This document shows positions 4,068-35,043 of a stretch of 64,000 bases of DNA, piece after piece. The first letter of the stretch is position 1; every line of letters starts with the position of its first letter. The stretch spans positions 4,079,501-4,143,500 of the forward strand of contig CP000781.1 of assembly GCA_000017645.1 (NCBI GenBank), read 5' to 3'. The translations under genes were made by a program, and so were the position numbers. Source of the stretch: Xanthobacter autotrophicus Py2 (GTDB lineage Bacteria > Pseudomonadota > Alphaproteobacteria > Rhizobiales > Xanthobacteraceae). Under the pieces are notes generated by a model, which was not told the origin of the DNA, made no database searches, and worked only from the letters and a program-made list of their open reading frames with translations.

Positions 4068-4350
4068 GGCTGGGGTCCTCCGTGGTCGTAAGGGGAATGT
4101 GCTCGAAACGACATGCACGTCCCCACGCTTCATCCGTCGAGAGCCCTCGCCACGCTTCGAACCGGCTCTCGCTACTGCAATTGCCGATGTTCGCGAGCAG
4201 GATGAAGGTGAGCGGTCCGAGATCAAGCCGCCACTCGCCGCCGTAAACGTCCGCATCGCGGCCGGCGCGCAGCTTCCACATGAGCGGCCAGAACTGGACG
4301 CCGATCCCGATTTCTCGGCAGTTCCGCCAATGCCAACGCGGTTCTCTCAT
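4054..4350 (-). CDS. Hypothetical phage protein (98 aa)
   Basis: Begins MREPRWHWRNCREIGIGVQFWPLMW and has a Gly-rich middle segment, YGGEWRLDLGPLTFILLANIGN, with a hydrophobic beta-like stretch. This Trp-rich layout is a recurrent phage ORFan. The ATG at 4350 follows the upstream stop (4355) directly. Function unknown. Confidence 0.6.
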   Translation of the reverse strand: MREPRWHWRNCREIGIGVQFWPLMWKLRAGRDADVYGGEWRLDLGPLTFILLANIGNCSSESRFEAWRGLSTDEAWGRACRFEHIPLTTTEDPSHDRD

Positions 4351-7353: not shown

Positions 7354-7838
7354 TTTCCCGCCTCAGCTCTGGCTTTGTTCACGATGGCGGTGAGCGCATG
7401 CACGATTTCCGCTTCCGGCCGGCCTAGCCCACGAAGGGCCTCAGACAGGTCATAGAGTCGCTCCGCGACCCGAAGGGGGTCGATGCCGATGATTGACCAC
7501 CAAAGCTCCTCCCCGTTGGCGTGCTGGGAATACTTGTCGCCCTGGTGGACATCGGGGGCCAACGGCACGGTCCATCTGTCGTCCGGCTTCGCGCTTCCAG
7601 GGCCTGCCTTCCCCATGGCCGCGCTCGAATAGCGGATATGAGCCGCATCATTCCTCCGGGATGCAGTCGGGAGCGCGCCGGTGGCAAGGCACGGCAAGTT
7701 CCGGATGAGGTCGAGGTGGCCCGCATCCTTCTGCCGGCCGCGCTCGCGCTTAGGCTTCCGCCCCTGCCTCTCTAGAGGATGATCAGGCTTCAGGCGGTTT
7801 GTGTTCCAGCCGCCATCCGGCTCAATGCGGGCGGCCAT
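7350..7838 (-). CDS. HNH-nuclease-like phage protein (DUF968-type)
   Basis: Contains HLDLIRNLPCLATG near residue 40, then AAHIRY, KPDDRWTVPL and HQGDKYSQHANGEELWW. This order of His/Asp/Cys residues resembles the putative HNH family DUF968 (Roi-like) of phage recombination regions. One expected Cys pair is incomplete (only PCLATG), so nuclease activity is uncertain. It then has GIDPLRVAERLYDLSEAL. The ATG at 7838 is preferred over GTG at 7841. Confidence 0.6.
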   Translation of the reverse strand: MAARIEPDGGWNTNRLKPDHPLERQGRKPKRERGRQKDAGHLDLIRNLPCLATGALPTASRRNDAAHIRYSSAAMGKAGPGSAKPDDRWTVPLAPDVHQGDKYSQHANGEELWWSIIGIDPLRVAERLYDLSEALRGLGRPEAEIVHALTAIVNKARAEAGK

Positions 7839-8005
7839 CACGCGCGCTCCATCTCTACGACAGGCTCTTCAGGAACCGATCCGTTGTTGATGTAGATTGC
7901 GACATTCACCCCAGTCTTGTAGACGCATAGGCATCGGCCCATGCGCACGACGCGGTAGCCGGAGCGGATGAGGCGGGCGCGGGCGTCGTGGATTTCGAGG
8001 CGCAT
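7838..8005 (-). CDS. Hypothetical phage protein (55 aa)
   Basis: MRLEIHDARARLIRSGYRVVRMG and a following beta-like YKTGVNVAIYI segment. The ATG at 8005 lies 2 bases downstream of the previous gene's stop. Function unknown. Confidence 0.5.
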   Translation of the reverse strand: MRLEIHDARARLIRSGYRVVRMGRCLCVYKTGVNVAIYINNGSVPEEPVVEMERA

Positions 8006-8007
8006 GG

Positions 8008-8334
8008 TCACTTCCCCTCCTTCAGGAGGCGGCGGCCGGCGTCGGTGATACCCACCGTGTGGTACCGGTACGCAAATGGGCGGGATGACGTGATGAGCCC
8101 AGCATGCCGCAGGCGATCGAGCAGCGCCGTAGTGGTGCAAATCTTCGCCCGGTCCCATGTGCCGCCGGCAAGCACTTCATCAATCGCCTGCAAGACACGG
8201 TACTGTGCGGGCGTCAGCTTCCCCCTCCCAGCGGGCGGCACAGCCACTTCGACTGCACCGCCCGCGTCCGCCGGGCTGGGGGAGGAGGGGGCTTCCAGAG
8301 GCCCCGGCGGATTGGTGTTCGTGTGATCGGTCAT
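8008..8334 (-). CDS. Winged-helix-like phage protein (108 aa)
   Basis: After a Pro/Ala-rich first third, the segment TPAQYRVLQAIDEVLAGGTWD...ALLDRLRHAGLITSS...YHTVGITDAGRRLL has the helix-turn-helix plus wing order of MarR/ArsR-like winged helices. Probably a DNA-binding protein; target unknown. The start overlaps the upstream stop by four bases. Confidence 0.6.
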   Translation of the reverse strand: MTDHTNTNPPGPLEAPSSPSPADAGGAVEVAVPPAGRGKLTPAQYRVLQAIDEVLAGGTWDRAKICTTTALLDRLRHAGLITSSRPFAYRYHTVGITDAGRRLLKEGK

Positions 8335-8774
8335 GCTGCCCTCTCGGTGAGGCGGGCCTTGCCAAGCGCGAGGATGTCCTCAACGGTCAGGCCCGGCAGA
8401 ATTTCAGTGGTGATCGTCAGCATTGCTGCATCGAAATATTCGCGGAACTTGGCGGCATCCATCCGGTCGAACGCCGTCGATTGCGCGCGGGTATCAACCT
8501 CTCCATGGACAGACGCATAGCTCTCGAAATATCCGAGGTGCATCTTCAGGGCGTGGTGCAGGACCTCGCTGGACGACCACTTCCCGGTTGCCGCGCACAC
8601 GGCCGACAGGACGGACCAGTAGAGGCGATTGACGCCACCAGATCGCGGCTCGGTAAGTTCGGCGCGGAGCGTCACGCCCTCCCTGTAGCGGGTGAGCGCT
8701 TCGGCATCGAACCGGGCGCGGGGCAAGAGCAGTTCACCCTTGCGCACCAGCCATATGGAGGGCTTGTCGCTCAT
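8331..8774 (-). CDS. Hypothetical phage recombination-region protein (147 aa)
   Basis: Begins MSDKPSIWLVRKGELLLP. The middle segment, GVNRLYWSVLSAVCAATGKWSSSEVLHHALKMHLG..., and the closing ILPGLTVEDIL resemble NinB/DUF1367-like proteins that sit beside phage exonucleases, but I cannot assign a family with confidence. Translationally coupled to the exonuclease (stop/start overlap at 8771-8774). Confidence 0.55.
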   Translation of the reverse strand: MSDKPSIWLVRKGELLLPRARFDAEALTRYREGVTLRAELTEPRSGGVNRLYWSVLSAVCAATGKWSSSEVLHHALKMHLGYFESYASVHGEVDTRAQSTAFDRMDAAKFREYFDAAMLTITTEILPGLTVEDILALGKARLTERAA

Positions 8775-26381: not shown

Positions 26382-27038
26382 ATGGCAGGGCGTAAGCGTA
26401 AGGCAGGGCGGCGGACGGCGGACGGTCGGTTAGCGAAGAAGCCGCGCCCGCAGCGCGTCAGGGACATCACCGACGTGGCAACCAGCCAGCCGCACCGCAG
26501 CTGGCTCAAGGAAGGCCAGCGCCGCGATCAGCGCGCCGAGAGCACCCTTGGCAGGATGTTCCTCGCCGACCTGATCACGGAGCCCGAGTGCTGGGCGGGT
26601 GAGCGGCTCCGCTCCATCATCCGGGAATTCCATGTCGTGATCGCCGCACCGATCACAGCGTCAACGGCGGCAATCATGGTCGCCGAGGGGATGGAGATCC
26701 CGGCCGAGGCCGACCACCTGGCGGCGGAGCGCCCGGAAACCGAGGAAGAGAAACGGGATCGGGTTCTCGCGCAGCACGCTGGCGCCATGGCGGTCCTCGA
26801 TCGGCTCGAATGGGGGCGGCAAATCACCAGTGAACTGGACGCCCTGCTTATGCGGGACGCCGAGCCCGAGCACCTCCGCCTGGTGAAGGCGGGCCTGCAC
26901 GCCCTCGCCGCCTTCTGGCGCATGGCCGAGCCTCCGGAAAACCCCAACGATCGCGAGGTCAAGGTGAAGGGGGTCCGCTATGGCGAGGAGGCCGAATGGC
27001 CTCACGAAGAGAAGGTGGTGAGCATCGTCTATAAGTAA
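26382..27038 (+). CDS. Hypothetical phage protein upstream of the packaging module (218 aa)
   Basis: Starts MAGRKRKAGRRTADGRLAKK, a basic nucleic-acid-like tail. It continues as a helical protein with ESTLGRMFLADLITEPECW, HVVIAAPITASTAAIMVAEG and LEWGRQITSELDALL. It is the last coding gene before the 0.9-kb RNA-like region. A late-gene regulator would be expected around here, but I see no diagnostic motif. Confidence 0.6.
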   Translation: MAGRKRKAGRRTADGRLAKKPRPQRVRDITDVATSQPHRSWLKEGQRRDQRAESTLGRMFLADLITEPECWAGERLRSIIREFHVVIAAPITASTAAIMVAEGMEIPAEADHLAAERPETEEEKRDRVLAQHAGAMAVLDRLEWGRQITSELDALLMRDAEPEHLRLVKAGLHALAAFWRMAEPPENPNDREVKVKGVRYGEEAEWPHEEKVVSIVYK

Positions 27039-27949
27039 AATTTCGGCTCCCTGCGCCATAGGCGCAAATCAGCCATGGTGTGCCCGAAATGCAGGGTGAA
27101 GTGTTGCGCCCTGATTTGGCATAGCAGTTTACGGCTCCGGCCCCTTCGGGCAAGTCGTTCCAAGTCCTACCGGCCGGATACGTCGGACTTGGTAGAAGCG
27201 GGGATCGGTCACAAACGCGTAGCTTGCCGGGGGCGAACAGAAGCCCCGTAGAAATTCCCGGCACCCATTCGCGCTTCGGCGCGCAACCAGGTGCGGACCG
27301 ACCAGCAGGCCTCCGGGCGCAAAGGCGGCGAGCACGGCGCTAAAGGCAAGCATCTGGCCCGCGCCGGCTGAGAGGCCGGCAACTGTGATCCCTGAGCGAA
27401 AGCTCGTGTTGAAGCAAGGCGCGCGATAGTGCCGAGTGGAGCGGGTGAGTAGGTGGCGCGGCACGGCCCCGCGATGGACCGCCGGGAAGCTACGGCGACA
27501 GGGTGAGGACGGCGCAAGCCGGTGGCCCAGGCCTTTGCCTCTCCCAAGTTTCGCGCTTCGGCGCGCACGAGTTCGACGCGGCAGCTTGTTGCTGTGAAGG
27601 TTGGGGCGGCCCGGCCGTCCCGCGTCGATCAGCTTCGAGAGGGCAAGCCAGCTCGCGCCTTGTGTGCCCCGGTAGGAAACGGCTTCCGTTCGAAGGGGAA
27701 AGCAACGATTGCCCAGCGGTGCGTAGGCGTTCGGCAAGCCGGCGCTTTGGCATTCGCTCTAGGGACCGCACAACGCGGGGATGGCGCCCCGCCCGCAGGG
27801 CGGCTGGGGTCGCGCCCGGCCTCTCACGAAAGCAACTCTCCGCCACGGCAGGCTTGAAGTCCGTGGCACGTCCACTGCCGCGGGGCTAGCCTCCGGGGCC
27901 CGTGTTCATCATCCGCCCGCCCGGTTCTGCCGAGGCGGGTTTTTCATTG
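27039..27949 (+). ncRNA. Candidate large structured non-coding RNA (about 0.9 kb)
   Basis: No convincing gene on either strand, but dense perfect hairpins. Examples: GCGCC-ATA-GGCGC (27053-27065); CCAAGTCC/GGACTTGG (27160-27192); TGCCGGG/CCCGGCA (27225-27263) with an inner stem; CGCGC-UUCG-GCGCG twice (27270-27283, 27552-27565); GCCGGC-6-GCCGGC (27363-27380); GAGC-GAAA-GCUC (27394-27405); CGGC-GCAA-GCCG (27510-27521); GGGGCGGC-3-GCCGUCCC (27603-27621); AACGG-CUU-CCGUU (27678-27690); CGCCC-GCA-GGGCG (27790-27802). UNCG and GNRA loops, plus a terminator at the 3' end, argue for a plus-strand functional RNA. Size and phage context recall the GOLLD/ROOL class, but I cannot show homology. Confidence 0.65.
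27916..27945 (+). terminator. Rho-independent terminator ending the RNA region
   Basis: CCCGCCCGG (27916-27924), loop TTCTG, then CCG-A-GGCGGG (27930-27939) with one bulged A, followed by TTTTT (27940-27944). It would define the 3' end of the structured RNA and separate it from terS. Confidence 0.85.
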
Positions 27950-27955
27950 GGCGAG

Positions 27956-27979
27956 TGAGCCCTTATTGAGGCGGGCTCA
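27956..27979 (+). promoter_or_regulatory. Stem-loop holding the terS ribosome site
   Basis: TGAGCCC (27956-27962) pairs with GGGCTCA (27973-27979). The only Shine-Dalgarno-like GAGG (27968-27971) sits in the loop, 11 bases before the GTG at 27983. This could tune terS translation. Confidence 0.45.
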
Positions 27980-27982
27980 GGC

Positions 27983-28600
27983 GTGACCGAGAAGCGAAAG
28001 ACGGATTGGGAGGCGATCGAGCGCGAATACCGCGCGGGCCAGCATTCCATCCGCGAAATTGCCAAGAAACACGGCGTCAGCGATACCGCCATTCGCAAGG
28101 AGGCCAAGGCCAAGGGCTGGGAACGGGCCCTTGCCGATCAGGTCCGCAAGGCAGTTCGCGAGAAGCTGGTTCGCAGTGATGGTTCGCAGTCAGGTTCGCA
28201 CCCTCAACGTGCGAACGACCGGGAGATCATCGAAGGGGCTTCGCTCCTCGGTTTCGAGGTCGTCCAGTCGCACCGGCGCGATATCTCGCAGCTCACCGCC
28301 ATCTCCAACATCCTCGCCACGAGGCTCGCAGCGGTCCTGAACAGCGACCCTGTGGAAGGCCGTTGCCTTGGTGACAAGGAAAGCCCCGGCGACCTTCTGG
28401 AGAAGCTGACGCGGGTTCGTGCGCGGCTGATCCCCCTGGAGCGGCAGGCCTACAACCTTGACGCCGAGGAGCGCGACCCCAGCGACCCTGATAGCCATGA
28501 CGGTTCCGCAATCGACCTTCTCGCTCGCCGCCTCGATCGCATCGCTTCCCGTAGCGGAGAGGGCCCGGGTTCTGGCGGGACTGACGAAGAAGCAGGCTGA
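27983..28600 (+). CDS. terS: Terminase small subunit
   Basis: GTG start. Residues 8-45 form an HTH (WEAIEREYRAGQHSIREIAKKHGVSDTAIRKEA) followed by AKGWERALADQVRKAVREKL, a standard small-terminase DNA-recognition head. The C-terminal half is helical (DLLEKLTRVRARLIPLERQAY) for ring assembly and motor contact. It overlaps terL by 104 bases. Recognises the packaging site and hands DNA to the large subunit. Confidence 0.85.
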   Translation: MTEKRKTDWEAIEREYRAGQHSIREIAKKHGVSDTAIRKEAKAKGWERALADQVRKAVREKLVRSDGSQSGSHPQRANDREIIEGASLLGFEVVQSHRRDISQLTAISNILATRLAAVLNSDPVEGRCLGDKESPGDLLEKLTRVRARLIPLERQAYNLDAEERDPSDPDSHDGSAIDLLARRLDRIASRSGEGPGSGGTDEEAG

Positions 28601-33695: not shown

Positions 33696-33898
33696 TTTCG
33701 CACGCCGTCCAGTTTGTCGGTGCTCTCTTCCATCGCCTTGACGAGGCTGAGCTGGAGCATCACGAGCGCTCGCCGCGCCGTCGCGATGGCGGTGTTTCCG
33801 CGCGTGGTCTCCCCCGGAGCGTCCCCGAGGGCTTCAGCAGCGGCGACCAGACGGTCGTGAACCTCGGTGTCGCTGAGGGGGCGGTGTTTTCGTGCCAT
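33686..33898 (-). CDS. Small antisense-strand gene in the late operon (70 aa)
   Basis: MARKHRPLSDTEVHDRLVAA, then RGNTAIATARRALVMLQLSLV: a protein-like helical sequence. It exactly fills the 196-bp gap between two late genes. Its stop overlaps the upstream gene's end by 10 bases, and its ATG at 33898 overlaps the next GTG at 33892. No family recognised. It may be a lysogenic accessory gene; a non-coding spacer cannot be excluded. Confidence 0.45.
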   Translation of the reverse strand: MARKHRPLSDTEVHDRLVAAAEALGDAPGETTRGNTAIATARRALVMLQLSLVKAMEESTDKLDGVRNQD

Positions 33899-35043
33899 CG
33901 GCCCAGACCATAGCGGAGATCGCAGCCATGGGGGACCCCCGGACGCTCTATGTCAGCCGGCCCCTGCTGAACGGCGCGGAACTGATCGATTGGGCGAAGG
34001 GGCAGGGGTTTACCAAGACGGTCCCCGCCGACGATCTGCATGTGACCATCGCCTACAGCCGCGATCCCGTGGACTGGGCGGCAGCCGGTGACCACTTCGA
34101 CCAGGTGCGGGCCCGGGCTGACGGGCCGCGTTCAGTGGAGCAACTCGGCGACAAGGGCGCGGTCGTGCTGCGGTTCGAGCATGCTGAACTCGCCCAGCGC
34201 TGGCAGGCCTTCCGCGACATTGGGGCGTCCTGGGACCACGACGGGTACCGCCCGCACGTGACGATCACCTACGACGCGGCGGGTGTCGACCTGAGCAAGG
34301 TCCAGCCGTTCAGCGGCGAGCTGGTCTTCGGACCCGAAGAGTTCGCGGAGATCGATGAGGATCGGGCCGACCGGGTCCGGGCGAGTGAGAAGGGGCGGCG
34401 CGCCATGGAGATCAAGAGCTTCGCTCTGGAACTGAAGGAGGTTGGCGACGCCGGCACCTTCACCGGCTACGGGGCAGCGTTCGGCAACGTCGACCAGGGG
34501 CGAGACCTCATCGCGCGCGGAGCCTTCGCGGATAGCCTGTCGGCGTGGCGTTCGAAGGGCAAGTTGCCCAAGCTCCTGTGGCAGCACGACGCGCGCAAGC
34601 CGATCGGCGTGTGGACCGAGATGCGCGAGGACGACTACGGGCTCTTCGTGAAGGGCCGGTTCACCGCCGGCGTGAAGCAGGCGGATGAGGCGTACGCGCT
34701 GCTCAAGGATGGTGCTCTGGATGGCCTTTCCATCGGCTACGCCACCATCGAGGACGAGATCGACCGGGCCGCAGGGATCCGGAAGCTGGTCAAGCTCGAC
34801 CTGATGGAGGTCAGCCTGGTCACCTTCGCGATGAACCCGGCCGCCGGCGTCACCGGCGTGAAGGCGGGCCCGCCGCGCACCATTCGAGAATTCGAGGCCG
34901 GGCTTCGGGAGAAGTTCGGTTTCTCGCACGCCCAGGCGAAGTCGATCGCTTCGTCCGGGTTCAAGTCGCTGGAGCCTCGGGATGAGGACGGCGCGATGAA
35001 CGACCTGCTGCGGACCATCAAGGGCATCCGGGCCGGTCTCTGA
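33892..35043 (+). CDS. Acb1-like 2H phosphoesterase fused to HK97 prohead protease
   Basis: 383 aa, one open frame. Residues 1-160: LYVSRPLLNGAELIDWAKGQ, first 2H motif LHVTIAYS (His50/Thr52), DPVDW, VVLRFEH, GASWDH, second 2H motif PHVTITYD (His122/Thr124), and ELVFGPEEF. The two HxT motifs and flanks match the Acb1 anti-CBASS phosphodiesterase family. Residues 172-383: S78 prohead protease with GYGAAFGNVDQGRDLIARGAF, WQHD (His232), DGLSIGY (Ser280) and LMEVSLVTFAMNP. An internal ATG at 34405 could also yield the protease alone. The protease matures the capsid; the 2H part may destroy cyclic-nucleotide immune signals. Confidence 0.88.
   Translation: MPSAQTIAEIAAMGDPRTLYVSRPLLNGAELIDWAKGQGFTKTVPADDLHVTIAYSRDPVDWAAAGDHFDQVRARADGPRSVEQLGDKGAVVLRFEHAELAQRWQAFRDIGASWDHDGYRPHVTITYDAAGVDLSKVQPFSGELVFGPEEFAEIDEDRADRVRASEKGRRAMEIKSFALELKEVGDAGTFTGYGAAFGNVDQGRDLIARGAFADSLSAWRSKGKLPKLLWQHDARKPIGVWTEMREDDYGLFVKGRFTAGVKQADEAYALLKDGALDGLSIGYATIEDEIDRAAGIRKLVKLDLMEVSLVTFAMNPAAGVTGVKAGPPRTIREFEAGLREKFGFSHAQAKSIASSGFKSLEPRDEDGAMNDLLRTIKGIRAGL

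Follow-up and report, generated by a model that had tools for sequence, protein, structure and literature searches.

A non-coding stretch of a Xanthobacter autotrophicus prophage is a mosaic of separately recurring modules, one of which has a covarying RNA fold

The tRNA islands of phage genomes are generally interpreted as collections of tRNAs. The tRNA cluster of phage T4 carries extra stable RNAs, RNA C and RNA D. GOLLD and ROOL are described as phage and prophage RNAs of several hundred nucleotides that often lie near tRNA islands and whose function is still open; GOLLD has a universally conserved 3´ region and a linker that sometimes contains tRNAs (PMC12286853). The manA and wcaG motifs of cyanophages are found in potential 5´ UTRs of metabolic genes (PMC2864571). 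Here, we describe a non-coding stretch at positions 27039-27950 of a 64,000-nt window, i.e. the whole piece of DNA that was analysed, from X. autotrophicus Py2. The stretch lies in a prophage between an ORF stopping at 27038 and the gene for the terminase small subunit (27983-28600, + strand; E 3.4e-41), and portal, head, and tail genes follow downstream, in agreement with an earlier note that had placed it before the packaging genes. The same note had read it as a single, highly structured 0.9-kb RNA that recalls GOLLD and ROOL in size, phage context, and location and may be a new class.

The claim that the ~900 bases hold no credible gene is upheld. A codon-usage gene caller found 0 genes in 27039-27950, which is weak evidence because the same caller misses the terminase small-subunit gene. 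Nine ORFs of at least 60 aa overlap the stretch, and none of the seven that were searched against Pfam reached a cut-off (the highest score being 14.9 bits where 26.9 were required); on the lack of codon signal and of Pfam matches, a hidden gene was rejected. ARAGORN found no tRNA or tmRNA in the window. The proposed check by cmscan (including GOLLD, ROOL, RNase P, and tmRNA) was run and found no family: 0 families of Rfam 15 reached the gathering score in the window, a search of 26900-28100 at E up to 10 returned 3 unrelated weak matches only, and the loci of 15 relatives gave tRNA only. Known Rfam 15 families (introns, RNase P, tmRNA, riboswitches, ribozymes) were rejected as candidates, the curated score never being reached. 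The stretch is without a recognisable gene and foreign to Rfam 15, and it is probably not one giant RNA.

The signs of structure read from the letters of the window fared less well. At least ten perfect stem-loops had been claimed and 11 were counted, but shuffled sequences have 8.5 +/- 2.6 and reach 11 in 65 of 300 cases. The folding energy of the stretch is likewise that of shuffles (z -0.21 on the + strand and -0.31 on the - strand; 20 shuffles per strand), and stem-loop number and folding energy were both rejected as evidence, neither being above shuffles for the window. The closing rho-independent terminator has the expected shape, a hairpin followed by a T-run at 27916-27944 (+), which is the presumed 3´ end, but the pattern is not in excess (1 site against 1.2 in shuffles). 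The crossing strings proposed as pseudoknots at 27041-27117 exist, but one partner of each pair is missing from the sole homologue of that part, locus L011 (loci are numbered L and genomes G), in the first 110 bases of which TTTCGG, CCCTGC, and AAATCAG are absent and their three partners kept.

The organization of the stretch emerged from a similarity search of its own genome and 100 relatives, followed by comparison of the homologous non-coding gaps with each other. Matches were obtained in 10 of the 101 genomes, several of them by chance, and they recovered pieces, never the whole stretch. In coordinates counted from the start of the stretch (W346 = window 27384), W14-346 is 96% identical to a prophage of X. 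autotrophicus DSM 432 (G005, L011), W346-543 is 96% identical to a second prophage of the same genome, and W247-346 matches a third prophage, in genome G012, at 91%; the three comparisons thus meet at W346. With a looser alignment the L011 match extends to W386. In L011 (oriented, ~7740-8600), module A is followed instead by DNA with reverse-strand ORFs.

All blocks delimited in this way are on the + strand. The 5´ part, block U (27052-27266), is near-identical only in X. autotrophicus DSM 432 (L011), with a weak likeness in L099 from 27212 on. Module A (27288-27384), for which there is covariation, is common to 18 loci. Module C (27385-27548) is common to L012 and L095 and present in part in L015. 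Module B (27567-27640), which reads ACGAGTTCGACGCGG ... CCGCGTCG, is found at 7 loci, and module D (27664-27796) was recovered by a plasmid search from the megaplasmid of Methylorubrum extorquens AM1 (71.6%, E 8e-14). Block F (27816-27906) is weakly similar to L029 (67%, E 2.8e-7). With the window counted, A occurs at 18 loci, B at 7, C at 4, and D at 2. Besides the window, B is found in L012, L014, L015, L016, L029, and L030, in all but L014 without A, and among the 18 A loci the pattern used for B places the two together in the window and L014 only. The order and neighbours of the modules change between loci, and no block is common to all, 27797-27950 matching L029 only, and weakly. These alignments show the stretch to be a mosaic. 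It comprises at least four modules, each of which is also met in the absence of the others in further phages and prophages.

Matches that did not qualify were left out. These were L003 and L019-L022, which fall in a glnE-type gene (read in L020), and L024, in coding sequence, all G+C-rich chance; L027, with pattern B inside an ORF; L049, with pattern A in A+T-rich DNA; and the short matches L023, L025, L097, and L098. L018 is a CRISPR array. Duplicates were merged (L039 and L082 of L011; L028 and L083 of L014; L026 of L016; L035 of L033; L084/L096 of L046; L085 of L032). Patterns for C and D had 0 matches in viral contigs. Phage records gave no match to the whole stretch and, with module A as the query, one match at E 1e-4, the other nine being weaker and read as chance. 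The titles and abstract starts of the open-licence PMC papers retrieved contained nothing describing these modules or the hairpin discussed below.

The mosaic bears directly on the single 0.9-kb RNA of the earlier note. On such a reading, the stretch would encode a large ornate RNA forming a class of its own, and the modules would be its domains, exchanged between phages, in a molecule that folds, and perhaps multimerises, as a whole. Size, phage, and tRNA-gene setting are as given for GOLLD and ROOL (PMC12286853), there is a single terminator-like hairpin at the end, and positions 27369-27379 and 27816-27826 are the two arms of a perfect inverted repeat of 11 nt. This repeat, however, overlaps hairpin P3 of module A and would open it. 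The parts occur apart in other phages, with A and B mostly separate, order and neighbours changing, and no module in all loci; close similarity ends at module borders. An excess of folding energy or stem-loops is missing, as are the pseudoknot partners in L011. We consider a single large RNA unlikely.

The best characterized part of the stretch is module A. Pattern scans, BLAST, and model R1 yielded 18 distinct loci including the window, from Xanthobacter, Mesorhizobium loti, Pleomorphomonas oryzae, a phage recorded under Microcystis, other genomes, and viral contigs, with one copy per stretch searched. The module has a near-invariant 25-nt core (27336-27360) of the form GGCGC(U/G/C)AAAGGCAAGCAUC(U/C)GGCCC, from which L037, L095, and L099 deviate. 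The constancy of the core is partly by choice because most loci were found through it; looser core patterns brought few or no further contigs, and none among viral contigs beyond the known ones. Next to the core are the stem P1 (27291-27294 with 27332-27335) and the hairpin P3 (27363-27380), both of which are absent from all search patterns.

P3 was assessed in 16 distinct loci, a set that excludes L099 and the near copy L011. Its covariation score is 0.660 against 0.196 +/- 0.044 in shuffles, 0 of 500 of which score as high, and 91.7% of the cells are paired against 64.5%. Both-side changes occur at all six pairs, a number reached by 3 of 500 shuffles, and the score falls to 0.282 or 0.244 when the partner is slid by one column. 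The number of additional pair types, 9, does not stand out from the 7.9 of shuffles (169 of 500). For P1, all 12 anchored loci (of 16) pair at 4/4 positions, with the types AUGC/GCAU, GUGC/GCAC, AUCC/GGAU, and GUCC/GGAC, and 0 of 100,000 shuffles reach 12; the anchor motif fixing the 5´ strand was chosen after looking, and in L032, L037, and L045, which have more than one anchor in reach, the pairing one was taken. This count does not include L031, L034, L046, and L086, where complementarity served to choose P1. By eye, L099 has P1 as AUGC/GCAU together with a 6-bp P3.

Module A has a covarying RNA fold. The covariation looked for in the stretch was accordingly found in one part of it, P1 and P3 of module A, and this RNA-level support applies to module A alone, not to B, C, and D. 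The window's own modules have unremarkable folding energies (z -0.91 for A, 0.85 for C, -1.13 for B, and -0.03 for D), the predicted minimum-energy fold of the window's module A is without P1, and among the energies of 12 module A stretches only L032 and L037 come near z -3. Model R1, run over 385 class genomes, returned 87 matches with E <= 0.01, in which the window scored 81.5 bits and no other listed match exceeded 30, these being read as noise, in contrast to L099, which scores 39.5 bits. The same model found no module A in 3.1-kb stretches of the phages phiLM21 and R6L.

In module B, a stem formed by 27574-27581 and 27620-27627 encloses an inside that varies between loci; across the 7 loci there is no covariation to speak of, and the letters of the stem hardly vary. 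Loci with B, C, and D are too few or too similar for an analysis of compensatory changes. On the AM1 megaplasmid, module D adjoins a gene like phage Mom. A non-coding gap with a tRNA-Met before the terminase is also seen in Sinorhizobium phage phiLM21 (L100, 1371-1900), where GGGAAGCCAACCGCGAC by eye recalls the core of module C. The reverse complement of L095 contains, at 7776-8130, at least two further inter-hairpin segments without a match to anything compared, and these are likely to be more modules.

The borders between modules often carry a tetraloop hairpin after an A/U-rich leader. The two C(UUCG)G hairpins with identical stems in the earlier note are indeed present, and both are part of one 18-nt direct repeat, the copies of which lie 282 nt apart. 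The first (27265-27287, +) consists of the leader CATTC, a stem-loop at 27270-27283, and CAACCAG, and the second (27547-27566, +) of the leader AGTTTC and a stem-loop at 27552-27565, the loop being UUCG in both. The first 15 bases of the repeat occur twice in the window (0.08 expected), both times in the stretch, and nowhere else in the 5.6-Mb genome; a host-genome repeat was rejected on this count. The loops differ between arrays: UUCG in the window and L014, UACG in L012 and L030, GCAA and GAAC in L046, and GAAC and GAAU in L095, where seven copies stand between tRNA-Met, A, C, and further segments. The A/C border has no hairpin in the window, whereas L012 and L095 have one there.

A hairpin rule, written after seeing examples, finds 24 copies in the 16.3 kb of 19 arrays against 38 in 212 kb elsewhere. 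By this rule, 12 of the 19 arrays have at least one hairpin and seven have none, and two or more are found in only six. In these six arrays, mismatches between copies amount to 0.68 of 12 positions within an array and 4.16 between arrays (1 of 20,000 label shuffles as extreme). The leader was examined in 21 copies from seven arrays, taken by the stem-loop alone with stems named by the analyst: the six preceding bases include 4.29 A/T against 2.29 expected (0 of 20,000), and 18 of the 21 leaders contain TT. The punctuation element thus consists of an A/U-rich leader and a tetraloop hairpin, and its copies resemble each other inside one array but not from one array to the next. It likely marks sites at which a transcript would be cut to yield separate small RNAs.

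A CRISPR array, or a mimic of one, was rejected as an explanation of the repeats. What lies between the hairpins are conserved modules, unequal in length. The stretch has two repeats 282 nt apart, not a regular series of them with spacers of similar size, and to the eye the window's hairpin is unlike the repeat of the X. agilis array in L018 (G013:C27:14000-30000). That array, ~5.8-7.3 kb into the locus, has 24 repeats and 23 spacers, and its spacer 20 matches the window at 31 of 32 positions of a protospacer (27351-27382, +) inside module A, and the module A of relatives at 30/32 or 29/31. Directly before the protospacer in the window is AAG, the usual type I-E motif. The match implies that DNA with module A has met a Xanthobacter.

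The company kept by the modules is that of tRNA and virion genes. ARAGORN calls tRNAs within 500 nt of a module at 11 of 22 loci, or 14 in the 21.9 kb near modules against 1 in the other 254.5 kb; the relatives mix modules with tRNA genes, and the window itself has no tRNA. Among phage records like the L095 array, the best 20 of 155 match at its tRNA-Met. Two loci show tRNA-like pieces by eye. In L012 (~7760-7860), a T-arm precedes a D-arm as in a permuted tRNA, and ARAGORN calls only a tRNA-Trp at 8276-8350. In L086 (~4170-4310), from phage Mwe-JY13, acceptor-stem halves and a T-arm are seen with a punctuation-like hairpin between the halves, and ARAGORN calls no tRNA. Mwe-JY13 is recorded under Microcystis and carries a GcrA-like gene, which suggests an alphaproteobacterial host. 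As a separate observation, one ORF of the window (33892-35043) fuses a phage RNA-ligase family (29-160) to a head maturation protease (157-380).

Such pieces, together with a window free of tRNA, would be expected if the stretch were a decaying tRNA island, with functionless leftovers of tRNA genes and spacers. The core of module A, nearly invariant in 18 loci (most of them found through it), and its covarying stems contradict decay for this module, not for blocks U and F, and we give decay hardly any credence. The terminase genes raise the question of a DNA packaging site (cos or pac), in which repeats would be bound by the terminase small subunit and no RNA genes would be involved. The stretch, with its 18-nt direct repeat, immediately precedes the gene for the terminase small subunit, module B has a nearly constant stem sequence, and a terminase is downstream by profile in the window, L012, L029, L030, L034, and L036 and by tblastn in L013, L014, and L016, i.e. 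in 5 further loci and 3 more. The covariation in A speaks for RNA, however; in L031 and L037 the genes around A are head genes, and head genes also flank the L095 array, which comes after the gene for the large terminase subunit. A packaging site is in our view distinctly improbable.

Transcript-borne antitermination, exemplified by HK022 put RNA, is another role that a small, folded RNA could have where it stands at the beginning of structural operons or within them, and module A with its hairpin might in this way help polymerase through untranslated or late operons. In phiLM21, which has a tRNA gene in a like place, a NusG-like antiterminator is annotated upstream. Yet phiLM21 lacks A in the 3.1 kb examined, and where A is found, there is one copy per stretch and it often follows a tRNA gene and is not at a promoter, making an antitermination element very improbable.

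We favour, at a probability of about 0.55, a model in which at least four separately recurring modules (A, with its covarying fold, C, B, and D) likely share one precursor, for which cleavage at the A/U-rich leaders into small stable RNAs is predicted. The stretch would be transcribed as a single precursor ending near 27945. A host enzyme such as RNase E may cut in the single-stranded leader, and the tetraloop hairpin would then shield the new 5´ end, much as tRNAs are released from polycistronic RNA. Held by P1, P2, and P3, the core of A may be the site at which a single conserved partner binds while the phage grows; a core that hardly changes amid stems that do looks like a binding site of this kind. 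Modules and tRNA genes would be swapped between phages as cassettes. We prefer this model because it accounts for the borders, the leaders, the tetraloops, the likeness of hairpins within arrays, and the company of tRNAs. Against it are the seven of 19 arrays that are hairpin-free by the rule and the mere six with two or more copies, the A/C border without a hairpin and the L011 match to W386 with looser alignment, the unremarkable number of pair types in P3 and the 3 of 500 shuffles that equal its doubly changed pairs, as well as the lack of a tRNA, the ordinary module energies, and the predicted fold of A without P1 in the window. More tentatively, and with slightly less than even confidence in the reading as a whole, alphaproteobacterial phages may assemble custom sets of host-directed RNAs as cassette arrays of interchangeable small RNAs and tRNAs, separated by a phage-specific hairpin that is copied and homogenised along the array, and module A with its nearly invariant 25-nt core may found a new RNA class. 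If so, some tRNA islands also carry structured RNAs that move like cassettes. The constancy of the core across 18 loci points to a fixed partner, and module A, at ~100 nt, offers a compact handle on the RNAs beside phage tRNA genes. A long non-coding stretch in a phage needs a test for modules before it is treated as one molecule.

In conclusion, the observation made in the earlier note is as a whole partly confirmed and its interpretation partly supported. The setting in phages or prophages is that of GOLLD and ROOL; tRNA genes are near modules at 11 of 22 loci, all of them in relatives, and the window has none. In contrast to GOLLD and ROOL, there is no match to the covariance models at the gathering score or at E 10, and the modules recur singly; with no block common to all loci, there is also no counterpart of the universally conserved 3´ region described for GOLLD. 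Like manA and wcaG, module A is a phage-borne structured RNA motif found by comparison, but those motifs are in potential 5´ UTRs of metabolic genes, and the window has no Rfam match. RNA C and RNA D of T4 are small RNAs that lie with tRNA genes in a phage genome, as many of the modules do. The modules differ in being common to phages of different hosts, in the exchange of blocks, and in the hairpin shared within an array, and the likeness is one of setting. By analogy, the nearest functional counterpart of the array would be a phage operon such as that of T4, in which a tRNA transcript is processed and additional stable RNAs are encoded.
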